Source of the DNA: Thermococcus sp. SY098 | GTDB taxonomy: Archaea > Methanobacteriota_B > Thermococci > Thermococcales > Thermococcaceae | Reading direction: 5' to 3' | Assembly: GCF_035621495.1 (NCBI RefSeq) | Contig: NZ_CP141821.1 | Coordinates: 524,760 to 588,759, forward strand | Length of the DNA stretch: 64,000 nt | Part shown: piece after piece, positions 30,960-39,229 of the stretch | How the letters are laid out: every line of letters begins with the position of its first letter | Position numbering within the stretch: the stretch's first letter is position 1 | Made by a program: the position numbers and the translations under genes | Notes under the pieces: generated by a model | The model's database searches: none | Told to the model about the DNA's origin: nothing | Seen by the model: the letters and a program-made list of their open reading frames with translations, nothing else

Positions 30960-32129
30960 TCAACCAATCTGGAATGCTGCACTTCTCAGTTCTCCACGCT
31001 CAAATCTGTGTGGGTCGTACCAGTCCCAATCAAGTGGAACTTTGCTCTTTCCTTTCACTATCAGCTCTGCGATTGCCTCACCAACTCCTGGTGCCATCAT
31101 AAAGCCATGTCCGCTGAAACCTGCAGCTATATAAAGCTCATCTACATATTGAATTCTTCCTATTGCAGGATTGCTATCGGGAGTTTTGGCATAAAACCCT
31201 GCCCACTGCCTAACAACGTGAACATACTTCAAAGCAGGAATAATTTTTGTTGCCCACTTAAGTACCTCCCTCATGAAGTCATATGTAGGTTGAACATCAT
31301 CTAAATGAGTGAGCTTCTCAAGCCCAGTTCCGCAGATAACACCGCCATCTTCACCATCTTGGATGACATAGGAATCATTCCATGCAGGGGGACACGTCAA
31401 TGGTTCAATTTGTCCCTCTGCTATTGGCTCAGTTTTGACAAGTTGATGTTTGTACGGCTTTATTGGGATAAAATCCCTTTTCAGTCCAGCCATTTCATTT
31501 ATTATTGGTGCCCAAGCATTTGCAGCGTTAATTACTATTCCAGTCTTTATTATGCCTTTTTCCGTTTTAACCCCTTTTATTTCATCCTTTTCCACCAATA
31601 TATCAACCGCCGGTGTATATTCGCAAATCTCAACACCAAACTCTTTTGCTTTCTTTGCAAACCCGTAAACAACGTGGAATGGACTTGCCTTCCCATCTTC
31701 GGGGTTCCATGCACCCGCTAAGAAAGGCTCTGTATTAAGGGGTGGGACAATTTCTTTTGCTTCATCCATGCCAATGAGCCTTGTAGGGACTCCAAGCCTG
31801 TTCTGGAGTTTTATGTTTTTCTTAAATACTTCAACTTCCTCCTCACTTGTTGCTAAGAATAGGTATCCACTCTGTTTGAAATTTATATCATGCTCAAGCT
31901 CATCACTAAGCCTCTTCCATCTCTCAATGTTGTACTTTTGAAGCTTTATATTTGCTTCATCGGTAAATTGTGCCCTGATTCCAGAGGCACATCTGAAGGT
32001 TGAACCTGAACCTATGTATTTCTTCTCAAGGACAACAACGTCTTCAACACCAAGCTTTCCTAAATGGTAGGCTATTGAGAGTCCAATGACGCCTCCACCA
32101 ATAATGACAACTTCAGCTCTACTCTTCAT
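30960..32129 (-). CDS. FAD-dependent amine/imino acid dehydrogenase, beta-type subunit (copy A)
   Basis: 389 residues. A DAO-type flavoprotein: VVIIGGGVIGLSIAYHLG at the N-terminus, STFRCASGIRAQFTDEAN near 45, WAGFYAKTPDSNPAIG, and FSGHGFMMAPG near the end, all like the catalytic beta subunit of dye-linked L-proline dehydrogenase and sarcosine oxidase-type complexes of Thermococcales. It would oxidise proline or a related imino acid and pass electrons to the partner subunits. I chose ATG 32129 (MKSRAEVV); an ATG at 32135 is an alternative. It overlaps the upstream 2Fe-2S gene by 11 bases and is the last of four overlapping genes. A close paralogue is copy B at 34523. Confidence 0.87.
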   Translation of the reverse strand: MKSRAEVVIIGGGVIGLSIAYHLGKLGVEDVVVLEKKYIGSGSTFRCASGIRAQFTDEANIKLQKYNIERWKRLSDELEHDINFKQSGYLFLATSEEEVEVFKKNIKLQNRLGVPTRLIGMDEAKEIVPPLNTEPFLAGAWNPEDGKASPFHVVYGFAKKAKEFGVEICEYTPAVDILVEKDEIKGVKTEKGIIKTGIVINAANAWAPIINEMAGLKRDFIPIKPYKHQLVKTEPIAEGQIEPLTCPPAWNDSYVIQDGEDGGVICGTGLEKLTHLDDVQPTYDFMREVLKWATKIIPALKYVHVVRQWAGFYAKTPDSNPAIGRIQYVDELYIAAGFSGHGFMMAPGVGEAIAELIVKGKSKVPLDWDWYDPHRFERGELRSAAFQIG

Positions 32130-32412
32130 TTCCATCACTCTCCATCTCACCCACCAATACTCCGGCTGGAACGGGTCTCACAGGGATTCTTGTTGCAGGA
32201 AGCGTAATTTCATCTGGTCTTTTACCGGTTTTTCTTGCAAGGATCGAGATAACCATCGGAAGACATGTCCTTCCTTGACACGGCCCCATGCCTATCCTTA
32301 AAAGCCTCTTTATCATCTCGATGTCAGTGACTCCCTGGTCTATTAGAGCCTCGATTTCCTCCTGAGTTACTTCATTACAGCGGCAGATTATGATGTTTTT
32401 CTTATCGCTCAT
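32119..32412 (-). CDS. BFD-like [2Fe-2S] subunit (copy A)
   Basis: 97 residues. The (2Fe-2S)-binding BFD-like motif is ICRCNEVTQEE followed by GMGPCQGRTC: four Cys in a CxC...CxxxxC pattern. In related dehydrogenase complexes this small protein carries electrons between the two flavoprotein subunits. It overlaps the ferredoxin gene by four bases and the beta-type subunit gene by 11, and shows strong resemblance to copy B at 35652. Confidence 0.86.
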   Translation of the reverse strand: MSDKKNIIICRCNEVTQEEIEALIDQGVTDIEMIKRLLRIGMGPCQGRTCLPMVISILARKTGKRPDEITLPATRIPVRPVPAGVLVGEMESDGNEE

Positions 32413-32915
32413 TCTCTCACCACCCTGACAGCCCTAACATCCCACGCAAGCTCAATTGGCATTTCAACCGTTATTATTGGCGTATCCCCTTTGCTCTTCT
32501 CCCTTGGCACCACTGTAATCACTTTTCCTTTCCCCACTTCTTCTCCGACCCTGTTGAGCAAAACCACCTCCTCCCCAACCTTTGGGACCGGTAAAAGCTC
32601 ATGCGGCATAGTAACCCTGGCTTTGTCACCAACGTAGTGAACCATGAAGAATGCCAAGCCGGGACAAATCTGCACACAGAGAGAACAGCCAATGCACTTC
32701 TCGTAATCAACGATCGGAATTGCATTTGGATTTTCCATAAGAACAGCGTTTGTGGGGCAGATTTCTTTACATGGTGTACATGGAATTTCCTGAGGACATT
32801 CAGGAATTGCAACAGGTCTTCTCCTCAATCGCTCCTCGCTGGGAAGCTCTATGACTTGCCTGAGCTCTTCAACTGTTATGAATCCCTCTCTGAGGTAGTG
32901 CGGGATTTCACTCAT
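32409..32915 (-). CDS. Ferredoxin-like subunit with two [4Fe-4S] clusters
   Basis: 168 residues. Cluster motifs are ECPQEIPCTPCKEICP (four Cys, about 39-54) and KCIGCSLCVQICPG (about 73-86). A C-terminal beta-rich part (about 100-168) has no cofactor motif. It sits between the large alpha-type and the BFD-like genes with four-base overlaps on both sides, the arrangement of a heterotetrameric dehydrogenase. Copy B of the operon has no counterpart of this gene, so electrons must leave that complex differently, or this protein serves both. Confidence 0.87.
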   Translation of the reverse strand: MSEIPHYLREGFITVEELRQVIELPSEERLRRRPVAIPECPQEIPCTPCKEICPTNAVLMENPNAIPIVDYEKCIGCSLCVQICPGLAFFMVHYVGDKARVTMPHELLPVPKVGEEVVLLNRVGEEVGKGKVITVVPREKSKGDTPIITVEMPIELAWDVRAVRVVRE

Positions 32916-34348
32916 TCTACCACCACCTTCTTAATACCCTCAAGAACTTTCCTACCAAATGGTCCGGCTCTAAACTCGTCAAGCTCTTTCTGGGCTTTCT
33001 CTATCTCTTTGAGCCATTCTGGTGAAGCAGAGCTAATCTCCAGAGCAGCAGCAATTCCAGCTATCTTTCCTTCAAGCATTGCCGTTGTTGCCTCCTCAAT
33101 TCCCGCCGAATCTCCTGCAACAAAGATTCCCCTAATTGTCGTTTCCATTCTGCTGTCTCTAATCACAACATGCCCCCCAAGCTCTGGGACGTATTTAATC
33201 TGACAGCCGACCTGATGAAGGAGCTCTATGCTTGGCCTTAGTCCAACGGCTAAGGCAATTACATCAACATCAAATACTTTCTCGGTTCCCGGAATTGGTC
33301 TCCATCTTTCGTCAATCTGAGCAACAACTGCCCTTTCAACCTTTTCTTTCCCTTCAGCTCTAAGGATTGTGTGTCTCGTCAGAATTGGAACACCCAATCT
33401 TCTAACCTTTGCTGCGTGAACGAAATAGCCTCCAATCTTTGGCATAGCCTCAACTATTGCCCTTACTTCAACACCAGCTTGGATTAGCTGATAGGCTAAG
33501 ATTAATCCAACGTTTCCGGCGCCAACAATGAGAACCCTATCTCCCGGCTTGACTCCATATGTGTTCATTAATGTCTGAATGGCTCCCGCTCCGTAAACAC
33601 CGGGTAAGTCGTTGCCCTCAAAAGGTATCATCTTTTCCATTGCTCCAGTTGCCACAATAACAGCTTTTCCTCTGAATTCCACGAGCTCTTTATTTTTCCT
33701 GACCCCAACTACGAGCTTTTCATCTCCATCTTGGAGAAGCATTATCGCTGAAGTTTCAAGGAAAATCTCTATGTTTTCCCTTTTTCTAACTTCTTCCTCT
33801 AAAATTTCCGCTATCTTGATCCCTCTAACTCCTGCAAACTGCTCTCTCTTTCCAAAGAACTTATGGGTCTGCTTTACCAGCTGGCCACCAAGCATTGGAT
33901 TCTCATCAAGAAGGATGACCTTAGCTCCGGCATCAGCAGCATTTATTGCAGCCATAAGTCCAGCAGGTCCTCCACCAATAATCACTATATCACCAGAAAC
34001 TTTTTCTGCCTCCCTCCATTCTGGAGGTTTTGCATTCTTGGGCAGTATTGGCTTCTCTTGTTGCATTCTTATATCCATGCCCTCTTCAACGAGTGTTATG
34101 CATGTTCTTACGTTTGGAATTCCGTTCACTGTCATTAAACATGAGGAGCACTTTCCAATTGCACAGAACAAGCCCCGAGGTCTGTGTTTGTGAACACTGT
34201 ATCCAAGGACTCTTATACCAGCAGCATGTAATGCCATGACTATTGTTTCTCCTTCATATGCCTCAACTGGTTGTCCCTCAAAATAGATTGTAATTTTTCT
34301 GCCACGCTTTTTTTGAAAATCAAGAACAGGGTGTTCAGTGAGCCTCAT
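32912..34348 (-). CDS. FAD/NAD(P)H dehydrogenase alpha-type subunit with 2Fe-2S domain (copy A)
   Basis: 478 residues. N-terminal 2Fe-2S domain with four Cys in FCAIGKCSSCLMTVNG and NVRTC (about 65-92), then an FAD Rossmann motif IVIIGGGPAGLMAAINAADAG (residues about 120-140) and an NAD(P)-binding one VLIVGAGNVGLILAYQL near 260; GIFVAGDSAG contacts FAD near 415. It matches the alpha subunit of proline dehydrogenase-type or opine/hydroxyproline dehydrogenase-type complexes. Start at ATG 34348 with GGTGAAACTT upstream; a longer frame to 34462 has no such support. It is the first gene of a four-gene operon that ends at 30960. Confidence 0.88.
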   Translation of the reverse strand: MRLTEHPVLDFQKKRGRKITIYFEGQPVEAYEGETIVMALHAAGIRVLGYSVHKHRPRGLFCAIGKCSSCLMTVNGIPNVRTCITLVEEGMDIRMQQEKPILPKNAKPPEWREAEKVSGDIVIIGGGPAGLMAAINAADAGAKVILLDENPMLGGQLVKQTHKFFGKREQFAGVRGIKIAEILEEEVRKRENIEIFLETSAIMLLQDGDEKLVVGVRKNKELVEFRGKAVIVATGAMEKMIPFEGNDLPGVYGAGAIQTLMNTYGVKPGDRVLIVGAGNVGLILAYQLIQAGVEVRAIVEAMPKIGGYFVHAAKVRRLGVPILTRHTILRAEGKEKVERAVVAQIDERWRPIPGTEKVFDVDVIALAVGLRPSIELLHQVGCQIKYVPELGGHVVIRDSRMETTIRGIFVAGDSAGIEEATTAMLEGKIAGIAAALEISSASPEWLKEIEKAQKELDEFRAGPFGRKVLEGIKKVVVE

Positions 34349-34522
34349 AAGTTTCACCAGCATGAAATATGTAAAAACTTGTTTATGAGGATTTTCTGAT
34401 AAAAAAGTTTTGCACCTTTGGTTGCCTTTCTTTTGTCTAATTAAGATTTCAGAATATAACAATGTCCAATTAATCTGAGAATAGACGAAAATCTTTCAAT
34501 AAAAAGGATTATAAGGTAAAAA

Positions 34523-35662
34523 TCATCCCATCTGAAGTGCGGTTTCCCTTAACTCTCCACGCTCAAAGCGATATGGGTCATACCATTCAATTGGCAAATC
34601 AGTTCTTCCTTTTGTTATCAAATCTGCAAGCATCTCAGCAACAGCTGGAGCCATCATAAAGCCATGTCCACTAAAGCCGGCAGCAATGTAAAATTCATCA
34701 ATCTCCTCTATCCTGCCAATTGCTGGATTGCTGTCTGGGGTTTTGGCATAGAACCCAGCCCATGTTCTAAGGATTAAAAGCTCACCAAGAACTGGAATTA
34801 TCTTTGTAAATGCTTTACTAACTTCTCTTATAAACTCATAAGTGGGGGTTAAATCGTAGGTAGGGCCGTATTCAACACCTACTCCCCCAATAATACCACC
34901 ATGTTCTGTTTGAGTTAAATATGCATCATTATACTTCAAGGATATCACCATTGGGTCGATCTGTCCTTCCTTAAGTGGCTGTGTAATAACTCCCTGATGT
35001 TTATATGGTTCAATCGGGATTTTAATTGGAATTTTAGCCATTGCGTTAATCAGCTTAGCCCATGCATTTGCGGCATTTACAATAATCCCGGTTTCAATTA
35101 TACCTTTATTTGTTTTAACTCCTTTTATCTCACCTTCCTCAACTATTATGTCCTTTGCCTCGGTATACTCTAAGATTTCAGCACCAAGCTTTCTTGCTTC
35201 CCTTGCAAACGCAGTTGTGGCAAAGAATGGGTCAGCTTTTCCATCAGTTGGATTCCATGATGCTGCAATAACCTCACTCGTATCCAAAACAGGGACAATC
35301 TCTTTAGCCTCTTCTGGAGTTATCAGCCTTGTGGGAACTCCAAGACTGTTCTGGAGCTTTATATTTTTCCTAAACTCCTCCACTTCCTCATCGTCATAGA
35401 GAAGAAATAGATATCCCGTTTGCTTAAATGGAAAACCGAGTTCTTCACTGTATTTCTTCCACAGCTCAACTGAACGCTTCATGACCTTAATATTGGCTTC
35501 ATCAGTAAACTGCTGTCTTATTCCAGTCCCACATCTAAAAGTTGAGCCCGAACCAATATACTTCTTTTCCAGCACTGTAACCTGCTCTCCTCTTTTCGCA
35601 AGCTCATAGGCAAGTGTAACTCCAATAATCCCCCCACCAATGATAACAATCTCACTCCTCAT
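34523..35662 (-). CDS. FAD-dependent amine/imino acid dehydrogenase, beta-type subunit (copy B)
   Basis: 379 residues, clearly paralogous to copy A at 30960: VIIGGGIIGVTLAYELAKRG, STFRCGTGIRQQFTDEAN, WAGFYAKTPDSNPAIG and FSGHGFMMAP are shared nearly word for word. The divergent stretches are between about 200 and 280 (substrate side), so the two paralogues may differ in substrate, for example proline against hydroxyproline, sarcosine or a D-amino acid. It overlaps the upstream 2Fe-2S gene by 11 bases and ends the three-gene operon 37159-34523. Confidence 0.87.
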   Translation of the reverse strand: MRSEIVIIGGGIIGVTLAYELAKRGEQVTVLEKKYIGSGSTFRCGTGIRQQFTDEANIKVMKRSVELWKKYSEELGFPFKQTGYLFLLYDDEEVEEFRKNIKLQNSLGVPTRLITPEEAKEIVPVLDTSEVIAASWNPTDGKADPFFATTAFAREARKLGAEILEYTEAKDIIVEEGEIKGVKTNKGIIETGIIVNAANAWAKLINAMAKIPIKIPIEPYKHQGVITQPLKEGQIDPMVISLKYNDAYLTQTEHGGIIGGVGVEYGPTYDLTPTYEFIREVSKAFTKIIPVLGELLILRTWAGFYAKTPDSNPAIGRIEEIDEFYIAAGFSGHGFMMAPAVAEMLADLITKGRTDLPIEWYDPYRFERGELRETALQMG

Positions 35663-35948
35663 CTGCCATCACCTTCATTTTCACTGGTCTGATTGGCGTT
35701 CTGGCAACCGGCAGCTTTATCTCCTTCAAATCCTTCCCTGTCTTCCATGCAATTATCCGAGCCACCGTGTCAATGCAGTATCTCCCCTGGCAGAAACCCA
35801 TACCAACATGGGTCAACCGTTTAATTAATTGGATGTCTGTAATCCCCTGATCAATTAAGTCAAGAATGTCTTTCAGCGTAACATCACATCCACAGATAAA
35901 AACTTCTTCTGGATTGATCTTTTCCAGATCAATGTTGAGCTTAATCAT
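35652..35948 (-). CDS. BFD-like [2Fe-2S] subunit (copy B)
   Basis: 98 residues. Cys pattern ICGCDVTLKD and GMGFCQGRYC, matching copy A. Preceded by a four-base overlap with the alpha-type gene. Because the alpha-type subunit of this operon has no cysteines in its own ferredoxin domain, this protein is the only Fe-S component encoded in the operon. Confidence 0.85.
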   Translation of the reverse strand: MIKLNIDLEKINPEEVFICGCDVTLKDILDLIDQGITDIQLIKRLTHVGMGFCQGRYCIDTVARIIAWKTGKDLKEIKLPVARTPIRPVKMKVMADEE

Positions 35949-37159
35949 AAAATCACCTCCTCAAGAAGAGATGCTTTGTCCCCAATTTTCTTGAGAAACT
36001 CCTCTTTTATTTGATCAACATTGCTTTTGAATCCAAATTCCTCAAGGATATAAGCTCCAACCAATCTGCCCTCGAGATAGTTCTCGTAACTTCCTTTAAT
36101 CCAAGAAGCGTTTCCAGCTATATAAACTCCGTCAACAATCTCATTTCTTTTGTTCCTAAGGGGAAGATAACCACCCAGATCTTCCACATACGTTATCTCA
36201 GCCCCCACCTGCTGTGCTAAATGAATATCAGGTCTGTATCCCTCGGCGATTATCAAAGCATCTGTCTCATAAACATTCCCTTTTACATCTACAACCCTCT
36301 CAACCTCGTTCTCACCTTCTGCTCTTACTATCGGATTTTCAATAAGGATATAATTTAAACCATGATTCTCAAATTCTCTGGCAATATTTTGAGAATTGCT
36401 GCCGTAGAGTGTTATCTTGTTCCCAGGTTTGACGCCCCAGATGTTTAACAATTCAAGAACAAAATCCTCTCTAAATACGCCGGGCATTTCGTTGTTCTCA
36501 AACAGTGCAAATTTTGCTATCCCTCCTGTTGAAACGACAACCCTCTTAGCTGTAACCTCTATTAAATCATTTTCCTTATTTGCAACTACAACAAAATAAT
36601 CCCCGTCACGAAAGACACCAAGAACTGGCGTCCTTGTAAAGGCTTTAACCCTGAGCCGTTCAACAAGTTCCTTTCTAAATTCTTTTGGTTTCTTGCCATT
36701 ACTGAGAGGCACGCTCCTCTTCAGTAAGCCCCAGCCTAATCTTCCTTTCTCCTCAAAAATCACAACATCAAGACTGTCTTGCATTTCCAAAGCAGCCCCT
36801 AATCCCGCAGCACCGCTGCCAACAATCACAACATCAGTATAATACCTTTCAACTTTGCCCATTTCTCCCAAATGTTCCGGCAGGGGCTCCATATAGCTCT
36901 GCATTTCAATTTTCATCCCATCCCAAACCTTAGTCTTTCTGCCATCATAGTTCCTGACACCATTAACAGTTACGAGAACTGGACCGAAAGTAAATGCCCC
37001 CCTTTTTCGTCCATGTCCGCTCAGTGTAATCCACTTTATCCCATTTGCGAGCAGTGCAACGTGAATCGGCTCTCCTTCGTATGCTTCAAGAGATTTCCCC
37101 TCAAAATAAATTGTAACTTTCTTAGAAGAATCCTTCTCATACAGATCTAAAGGGCGCAT
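35945..37159 (-). CDS. Alpha-type flavoprotein subunit lacking the 2Fe-2S cysteines (copy B)
   Basis: 404 residues, 74 shorter than copy A. The N-terminal ferredoxin-like fold is kept (VTIYFEGKSLEAYEGEPIHV, then VLVTVNGVRN), but none of the four Cys is present. The FAD motif VVIVGSGAAGLGAAL is intact; the second nucleotide-binding site is altered (ITLYGSNSQNIAREF instead of a GxGxxG Rossmann motif), so NAD(P) binding is doubtful. GVYIAGNAS replaces the usual FAD-binding GIFVAGD. It is probably a structural or regulatory alpha-type subunit, or one with different electron flow. Start at ATG 37159 after GGTGATATC; TATA-like TTTATAAG at 37207-37214 on the minus strand. Confidence 0.82.
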   Translation of the reverse strand: MRPLDLYEKDSSKKVTIYFEGKSLEAYEGEPIHVALLANGIKWITLSGHGRKRGAFTFGPVLVTVNGVRNYDGRKTKVWDGMKIEMQSYMEPLPEHLGEMGKVERYYTDVVIVGSGAAGLGAALEMQDSLDVVIFEEKGRLGWGLLKRSVPLSNGKKPKEFRKELVERLRVKAFTRTPVLGVFRDGDYFVVVANKENDLIEVTAKRVVVSTGGIAKFALFENNEMPGVFREDFVLELLNIWGVKPGNKITLYGSNSQNIAREFENHGLNYILIENPIVRAEGENEVERVVDVKGNVYETDALIIAEGYRPDIHLAQQVGAEITYVEDLGGYLPLRNKRNEIVDGVYIAGNASWIKGSYENYLEGRLVGAYILEEFGFKSNVDQIKEEFLKKIGDKASLLEEVIL

Positions 37160-37206: not shown

Positions 37207-37238
37207 CTTATAAACCTTAATGTTGAAACTAAAGGTTT
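37207..37238 (-). promoter_or_regulatory. Promoter with inverted repeat upstream of dehydrogenase operon B
   Basis: Read on the minus strand, TTTATAAG (37207-37214) is TATA-like, 48 bases before the start codon at 37159. AAACCTT (37212-37218) and AAGGTTT (37232-37238) form a 7-bp inverted repeat with a 13-base spacer overlapping and upstream of it, a position suited to an activator. The T-rich minus-strand sequence between 37236 and 37262 may end the symporter transcript from upstream or be a BRE-distal element; this is uncertain. Confidence 0.4.
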
Positions 37239-37268: not shown

Positions 37269-38876
37269 TCAAGCAAACCCTCTGGCTTTGATAAACTCTG
37301 CGACATTTTCAATTTGGCTCTTTGCCCTCGCCTCCATGACTTTCTTGCCGCCTTCTTGCACTGGAACCTTCTTGAAAATCTGCTCATGAAGCTTAACAAC
37401 GTCTTCTGGTGGCTTCGTTAGCAGGCTGATAATGATTATTATAAACAGTGTGACAAAGAAGTTTATGAAGAACACTGGAACGCCATTGAAGATCGATCCA
37501 AGGGTCCCAAAGAATCCCGGGGCATTTGGATTGAATGCCCATCCGTAAATCTTTGACTCAAGAATGACCTCAGAGATTAAACCGTATGCCATTCCTATAA
37601 TTCCAGCCTCTTTTGTAACCCTCTTCCACCATAGACTCAGGGTTAATATTGGGCCAAATCCAACAGCCAAACCGCCCCATGCAGTCGCAACCATGCCATA
37701 GATGAACTTACTTCCCGTTAATGCTCCATAGAGAGCAAAGATTGCAACGCCTAAGACAACTATTCTACCAATGTTGACTATCTGCTTCTTCCCAAGCTCC
37801 TTTCCAAGAACTTTGTGATACAGATCTCTCGTAACCGCTGAGGAAGCAACCAGCAATTGAGAGTCAGCAGTACTCATTATTGCTGAAATTATACCTGCAA
37901 TGACAAATCCTGCTAACCAAGACGGCATGAGCTCAACAGCCATTGCAGGAATGACTCTCTCTGGATCACTGACTTGTAAAATCCCCGCCTTCACCATAGC
38001 ATATCCAAGGAATCCAGCAAAGAATGCACCCCAGAGGACGATGATTGTCCATATGCCACTGATGAATATACCAGGTCTCCTAAGCTTCCTTGGATCTTCA
38101 ACACTCATGTATCTTGTGACTATGTGAGGCTGACCAAGATATCCAACGATCCATGAAGCATAACCAATGGCAAAAATTAATGCAGCAAACCCAACAGCAC
38201 CTCCGAAGGGATGTAGCTTTGCGGGCTCCATGTATTGGGTTGCCTTTTCAAGCCCGCCAATCTTTGCAAGGGCTAAAATGGGCACTATAATAAGTGTCAG
38301 TAGCATAAACAGCGCCTGCACTACATCTGTCCAGACAACTGCAAAGAATCCTCCCGTAATAACATAGGCGGTCAGTATAATCACAGTTATTAAGATACCA
38401 GTGTTTACACTGATATCAAACGCCTGAGCTAAGGCTTTTCCACCCGCTGCAAATTGTGCTGCTACATAAGCTGTCATGAAGACCAATATAATCGCAGCAC
38501 CAAGGATTCTAATCAGCTTTGTATCATCCTTAAGCCTCGCCTCCAAGTAGTCTGGGACTGTAATTGCCCTGAATTTACCCGCATAAATTCTCAATCTTGG
38601 CCCAATTAGCACATAGTCTGCCAAGGTTCCAAAGAGACATCCAATTGCCGCCCAAAATGCACCCAAACCTGCTTTAAATGCACTCCCCGGATAACCAAGC
38701 ATCAGCCAGCCAGAGAAGTCGCTTGCTTTATCACTGAGGGCAGCAGCAAGAATGTGGACTTTTCTTCCACCAACGAAATACTGATCTTCGGTTTTTGTGA
38801 ACCTGTTTGCCCACCAGCCGATGTATGCCAAAAGGACTAAGTATGCCAGGAAACCAATCAGTATGCCAGCGTTCAT
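37269..38876 (-). CDS. Sodium/solute symporter (SSS family), probably proline
   Basis: 535 residues with about 13 membrane segments. SSS family features: WWANRFTKTEDQYFVGGR in the first loop, SDFSGWLMLGYPG (sodium site region, about 53-65), and GIISAIMSTADSQLLVASSAVTRDLY near residue 330, the family signature. It resembles PutP-type Na+/proline symporters. Two dehydrogenase operons for imino acid oxidation lie immediately downstream on the same strand, supporting a proline-like substrate. Start at ATG 38876 with GGGGGTAAGAG; it overlaps the preceding 58-residue gene by four bases. Confidence 0.88.
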   Translation of the reverse strand: MNAGILIGFLAYLVLLAYIGWWANRFTKTEDQYFVGGRKVHILAAALSDKASDFSGWLMLGYPGSAFKAGLGAFWAAIGCLFGTLADYVLIGPRLRIYAGKFRAITVPDYLEARLKDDTKLIRILGAAIILVFMTAYVAAQFAAGGKALAQAFDISVNTGILITVIILTAYVITGGFFAVVWTDVVQALFMLLTLIIVPILALAKIGGLEKATQYMEPAKLHPFGGAVGFAALIFAIGYASWIVGYLGQPHIVTRYMSVEDPRKLRRPGIFISGIWTIIVLWGAFFAGFLGYAMVKAGILQVSDPERVIPAMAVELMPSWLAGFVIAGIISAIMSTADSQLLVASSAVTRDLYHKVLGKELGKKQIVNIGRIVVLGVAIFALYGALTGSKFIYGMVATAWGGLAVGFGPILTLSLWWKRVTKEAGIIGMAYGLISEVILESKIYGWAFNPNAPGFFGTLGSIFNGVPVFFINFFVTLFIIIIISLLTKPPEDVVKLHEQIFKKVPVQEGGKKVMEARAKSQIENVAEFIKARGFA

Positions 38877-39049
38877 CTCTTACCCCCCTCAAGCTCTTTT
38901 AGCAATTCCTCGTCGTATGCCAGTATTTCATCGTCTACATAGTATTCCTTGCCTGTTATTTTGTCCCAAAAGCCATACAGCACCATCACTAAAATCCCTA
39001 AAAGAGTAGGTACAATCAATGTTGCCCAAGCAGCACCACTAAGGCCCAT
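38873..39049 (-). CDS. Small membrane protein, companion of the symporter
   Basis: 58 residues: one membrane segment (about 6-27: AAWATLIVPTLLGILVMVLY) and an acidic cytoplasmic tail (KEYYVDDEILAYDEELLKEL). Start at ATG 39049 with GGAGGTGAAAAA, a very strong binding site, and a four-base overlap into the symporter gene. Some SSS transporters are preceded by a tiny hydrophobic protein of this kind; a role in assembly or activity is inferred from that arrangement. A longer reading frame to 39136 has no ribosome binding site. Confidence 0.8.
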   Translation of the reverse strand: MGLSGAAWATLIVPTLLGILVMVLYGFWDKITGKEYYVDDEILAYDEELLKELEGGKR

Positions 39050-39229
39050 TTTTTCACCTCCAGTAACTTGATGCAGCAACAATGTACTGCAATTTTCATT
39101 TATACACTTTACGTATATAAAACTAACGCCGCACAAAATTTGGATATGTGCAACAGATTTTTATGAATTATACTTCATCAATTAGTGTTATAAGCAAGGA
39201 GTATGTTAAACTGTTATGGGGAGGGTCAA

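Follow-up and report, generated by a model that had tools for sequence, protein, structure and literature searches.

A probable PDH1-type L-proline dehydrogenase in Thermococcus sp. SY098 with a cysteine-free alpha subunit and a separate gene for its BFD domain

Genes of the two dehydrogenase copies

The window, which is the whole stretch of 64,000 nucleotides analysed here, holds two related dehydrogenase operons, adjacent and on the same strand, referred to below as copy A and copy B. All window coordinates given are those of minus-strand features. The alpha gene of copy B (35945-37159) is an open reading frame of 404 amino acids with an ATG start. GGTGAT stands directly upstream of this ATG, and a TATA-like box, TTTATAAG, was noted by eye at 37207-37214 (minus strand), about 50 bases before the start. 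The alpha protein consists of a Cys-free ferredoxin-like domain, an FAD/ADP-type Rossmann domain and the remnant of an NAD domain. Pfam places a Fer2_4 domain (PF13510, 65.6 bits, cut-off 22.8) at residues 13-88 (36896-37123, minus strand), without the cluster cysteines, and Pyr_redox_2 after it. The entire translation does not contain a single cysteine.

The alpha gene of copy A occupies an open reading frame at 32912-34462, with a likely start at 34348 that gives a protein of 478 amino acids (32912-34348, minus strand). It is of the PDH2 type, with four ferredoxin cysteines and both nucleotide motifs. The other copy A genes, also on the minus strand, encode a 4Fe-4S subunit of the pdhF type (32409-32915), a BFD subunit of the pdhX type (32119-32412) and a beta subunit of the pdhB type (30960-32150).

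When the two alpha subunits were aligned, the cluster cysteines of copy A (C-x4-C-x2-C-x12-C) fell opposite a gap, F, V and R in copy B. The sites of the first three are spanned by a remodelled loop, RKRGAFTFGPV (residues 51-61, 36977-37009, minus strand), which is four residues shorter than its counterpart in copy A. The first nucleotide motif region is retained (GSGAAG, residues 109-121, 36797-36835, minus strand), but the second GxGxxG has changed from GAGNVG in copy A to GSNSQN (residues 247-270, 36350-36421, minus strand) and is followed by a 29-residue deletion in the second, NAD-type nucleotide domain. The original prediction had noted both the missing cysteines and the degraded second motif, and both observations were borne out. 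Judged from its sequence, copy B alpha is unable to hold a plant-type [2Fe-2S] cluster, and its NAD(P)H site has probably been lost. As had been proposed, the subunit would then be incapable of passing electrons in the manner of copy A.

The remainder of the operon alters the picture. Immediately downstream of alpha lies a gene for a BFD-type [2Fe-2S] subunit of 98 amino acids with four cysteines (35652-35948, minus strand), which the original prediction had passed over. Its start overlaps the alpha stop in an ATGA sequence (35945-35948, minus strand), and a Shine-Dalgarno-like GGAGGTG is found at this junction (35954-35960, minus strand). The third gene (34523-35662, minus strand) encodes a PDH1-type beta subunit, an FAD proline dehydrogenase of 379 amino acids that retains the R-x-W motif. 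In its extended form, RxWAG, this motif was present in all 63 PDH1 betas of the survey described below; among PDH2 betas, 32 of 36 matched the pattern and four did not. A 4Fe-4S gene is absent from the copy B operon, as the prediction had stated, and in the 43 related loci with PDH1 but without PDH2 in the analysed stretch, no same-strand CxxCxxC frame of less than 250 amino acids was found within 4 kb. The claim that the cluster had been lost stands for alpha itself, in which no Fe-S site was found, but an exit for electrons would remain in the four-Cys Fe-S protein encoded right beside alpha.

On the other side of alpha is a gene for a sodium:solute symporter (37269-38876, minus strand; PF00474, 275 bits). 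Its best model is that of the sodium/proline symporter PutP (TIGR02121), at 395 bits below the curated cut-off of 515.5. An 87-aa frame at 38873-39136 (minus strand) overlaps the symporter start by four bases and has one likely membrane helix; by eye, it looks like a small partner of the symporter.

Relationship to known dehydrogenases

The best PDB match of copy B alpha was 1y56_A (PH1363; E 1.6e-111, residues 1-389). The entry 1Y56 is PDH1 of Pyrococcus horikoshii, an L-proline dehydrogenase with FAD, FMN and ATP, and PH1363 is its alpha subunit. The 98-aa protein matched residues 402-491 of the same chain (E 5.7e-31) and so corresponds to the fused C-terminal domain of PH1363, while copy B beta matched 1y56_B (E 1.2e-207). 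The same chain, 1y56_A, also ranked first for a structure model of alpha (Z 24.5 over 358 aligned residues, next chain Z 18.1). The model has a mean pLDDT of 71.7, with values below 50 in the loop of residues 45-60, and the rmsd of 11.2 perhaps reflects a domain shift. Copy B hence combines an alpha homologous to PH1363 along its full length, a four-Cys BFD domain and an adjoining 1Y56_B-type beta. On the strength of these matches we read copy B as the Thermococcaceae PDH1, a dye-linked L-proline dehydrogenase with alpha and BFD domain encoded separately, with a probability of about 0.87, and copy A as PDH2. What had appeared to be a puzzling gene thus finds its place as PDH1, a known feature with one small variation in architecture.

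The P. horikoshii enzyme (PH1363/PH1364, alpha4beta4) shares with copy B the Cys-free ferredoxin domain and the reduced NAD domain, but has its BFD domain fused to alpha. Identity between copy B alpha and a P. horikoshii-type alpha (genome G006) is about 50%, so that ATP binding and alpha4beta4 assembly could differ in copy B. The loss of the cysteines is already in the literature: in 2007, the N-terminal domain of 1Y56 was assigned to the 2Fe-2S ferredoxin superfamily with loss of the metal-chelating cysteines, and a reuse for ligand binding was suggested (PMC1949818). A table legend of another source likens the delta subunit to the C-terminal ~90 residues of P. horikoshii alpha (PMC4575208). 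A transposon insertion in PF1245 (PMC5099854) was set aside as evidence on PDH1 alpha, since the identity of this gene with alpha is not established.

Copy A is of the type of the alpha-beta-gamma-delta L-proline dehydrogenase PDH2 (pdhAFXB) of Thermococcus profundus, which has a common domain plan with copy B and likewise a separate BFD gene. Unlike copy B, it retains the four ferredoxin cysteines, the NAD motif and the 4Fe-4S subunit. Four Fer2 cysteines in alpha together with a 4Fe-4S subunit mark PDH2; copy A has both, and copy B neither. Neighbouring PDH1-like and PDH2-like genes in the same order are described for a T. litoralis gene cluster (PMC4364671).

Heterotetrameric sarcosine oxidase offers a further comparison. 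The N-terminal part of SoxA (2GAG, 1VRQ), which does not have the four cysteines, aligns with the Cys-free ferredoxin-like domain, and the A3 domain of SoxA has a counterpart in the copy B BFD protein, which also matches the A3 model PF17806 and maps to positions 522-597 of TIGR01372. However, SoxA is 964-965 amino acids long, more than twice the length of copy B alpha, and the TIGR01372 score for copy B was 108 bits against a cut-off of 1164.

Conservation of the cysteine-free alpha and the electron path

The comparison with related genomes that had been called for was carried out on 94 genomes of the family. They contained 75 full-length PDH1-type places, of which 63, the window included, were read. 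The four cluster cysteines were absent from every one of the 63 alphas, as was the second GxGxxG, and both the 4-residue loop gap and the 29-residue gap were present throughout; the first GxGxxG was retained in all. Among the loop residues of alpha, R51, F58 and R74 are invariant. A single cysteine elsewhere in the N-terminal stretch was found in three alphas. Neither a frame error nor a misassembly can account for the missing cysteines, as the loss is identical in 63/63 alphas. Since the same losses recur in all PDH1 alphas read, they must be old and fixed. The four BFD cysteines, by comparison, were kept in 63 of 63 (7/7 with separate and 56/56 with fused genes), and alpha, BFD and beta occurred together in each genome.

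Outside the family, all 13 usable archaeal two-domain alphas retain the cysteines, which makes the loss specific to PDH1 in this sample; three further archaeal rows were left out, one because it lacked the marker motif and two because they were truncated by the end of a contig. In a midpoint-rooted tree, a long branch leads to PDH1 as a single clade, placed among archaeal sequences that bear the cysteines. The sarcosine-oxidase-like alphas that lack the four-Cys pattern are on the opposite side of the tree, together with bacterial sequences that bear them. These opposite positions suggest that PDH1 and SoxA-like alphas lost their cysteines independently, on a tree with a long-branch warning in the sarcosine-oxidase group and a midpoint root.

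The domain that lost its cysteines is under stronger constraint than its surroundings, a point likewise absent from the original prediction. Between the window copy and the 56 fused copies, conservation was 0.69 in the Cys-free domain and 0.46 in the rest of alpha. None of 10000 column shuffles produced so large a difference, a figure that serves only as a guide because columns are not independent. The order is reversed in copy A alpha, with 0.79 in the ferredoxin domain and 0.86 in the rest. We propose that structure or docking, rather than electron transfer, is the reason why the Cys-free ferredoxin fold has persisted. Holding FMN is a mixed lead in this respect. In the related opine dehydrogenase, the gamma subunit corresponds to the Cys-free ferredoxin-like domain, and only the full alpha-beta-gamma complex yielded FMN, which was not recovered without gamma; in D-hydroxyproline dehydrogenase, FMN was unaffected by gamma (both from PMC4575208).

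The solved enzyme suggests the following path. L-proline would probably be taken up by the neighbouring symporter, whose presence in the analysed stretch around PDH1 in 47 of 63 loci fits this role, though its score is below the PutP cut-off. In the solved P. horikoshii PDH1, proline is reportedly oxidised at the beta FAD, and FMN is said to lie between alpha and beta; by analogy, electrons in copy B would pass from the beta FAD to such an FMN. They would then leave through the Fe-S centre of the BFD protein, the only one left in the operon and one with invariant cysteines, to an external acceptor, for example ferredoxin, so that this centre is presumably redox-active in PDH1. Alpha would act as a scaffold for FMN, ATP and the BFD protein. 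The R-x-W motif has been proposed to serve FMN (PMC4575208).

A more far-reaching version, in which the cluster-free fold has been recruited to a new, strongly conserved job (gating of the electron exit or ATP sensing) and the three-protein form of the window is ancestral with an exchangeable BFD subunit, is rather unlikely in our estimation. Somewhat less plausible still is an alpha that is purely regulatory, for instance an ATP sensor controlling beta. The reduced NAD domain agrees with such a role, and so does ATP in the P. horikoshii complex, which the title of a 2005 paper by Tsuge reports. A position of FMN between alpha and beta speaks against it, as do the four invariant BFD cysteines, which fit a continuing electron path. 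The earlier idea that copy B might have become only regulatory also fits poorly with its own four-Cys BFD protein and beta, both matching the solved P. horikoshii PDH1.

It had further been suggested that copy B borrows the ferredoxin subunit of copy A or forms a hybrid complex, in which copy A would lend its 4Fe-4S or ferredoxin subunits to copy B alpha and beta. The adjacency of the operons in the window would allow this, PDH1 and PDH2 occur within one analysed stretch in 20 of 63 genomes, and a related bacterial opine dehydrogenase is described with two betas that have alpha and gamma in common (PMC4575208). We nevertheless consider a hybrid very improbable. A BFD subunit and a beta are both encoded within copy B itself, and in the other 43 of 63 genomes PDH2 lay outside the analysed stretch around PDH1, mostly 6 kb on each side. 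PDH1 was found without PDH2 in five genomes (G049, G056, G059, G064 and G066), all of them drafts that are 82-94% complete, and PDH2 without PDH1 in the single-contig genome G074. Moreover, Kawakami is said to have purified the P. horikoshii PDH1 complex in 2005 without PDH2 subunits.

Over its full length, alpha evolves faster than beta (in 58 genomes, the mean identity to the window copy was 0.52 for alpha and 0.79 for beta), as a decaying pseudogene or neutral relic might, but this explanation is already refuted by a dN/dS of 0.04-0.08 (10 pairs from five close genomes; beta 0.04-0.11), 69 residues invariant across 63 sequences and a frame open in all 63. Such strong purifying selection, together with a Cys-free domain that is the most conserved part, indicates that alpha is not decaying; the cluster loss is an old, fixed trait of a protein under selection.

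Separate and fused BFD genes

The only unusual feature of copy B is that the small iron-sulfur domain, fused in most relatives, has its own gene. Two overlapping genes encode alpha and BFD in seven of the 63 genomes (the window, G087, G090, G091, G092, G002 and G093), and a single fused gene encodes them in 56. The ATGA overlap and the upstream GGAGGTG are common to all seven, which carry three genus labels, and a sequencing error as the source of the split is thereby ruled out. The literature searched, which did not reach the likeliest review, yielded no description of the split form.

All 56 fused rows group together in a single clade (100/100), the PDH2 operons read have BFD as a gene of its own, and by pattern none of the 13 other archaeal two-domain alphas has a fused BFD. 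Fusion is therefore probably the derived state, which would make the crystallised P. horikoshii enzyme a derived form; fission of an ancestral fused gene is less likely. As a counterpoint, a BFD-like domain is fused in bacterial sarcosine oxidase alpha, so fusion has happened elsewhere too. For the seven split rows, one clade and a basal grade are about equally well supported, with fork support of 84/11 and p 0.456 in the AU test. With its split genes, the window provides a PDH1 that naturally consists of three proteins, so that the part played by the BFD centre could be addressed without cutting a fused chain.

Some loci depart from the general pattern of the trees. One genome with the window's genus label (G088; L041, 4560-7191) has PDH2 beside PDH1. 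Its PDH1 alpha is of the fused kind and branches as the sister of all the others of that kind, whereas its PDH2 beta groups with the genus; operon replacement or exchange is possible. In five other genomes (loci L072, L083, L084, L089 and L090), the midpoint-rooted beta tree places the PDH2-operon beta on the side of the PDH1 betas (100/100). The only one of these represented in the alpha tree, L090, has a PDH2 alpha that groups with other PDH2 alphas, and the beta subunit may have been swapped in these five PDH2 operons.
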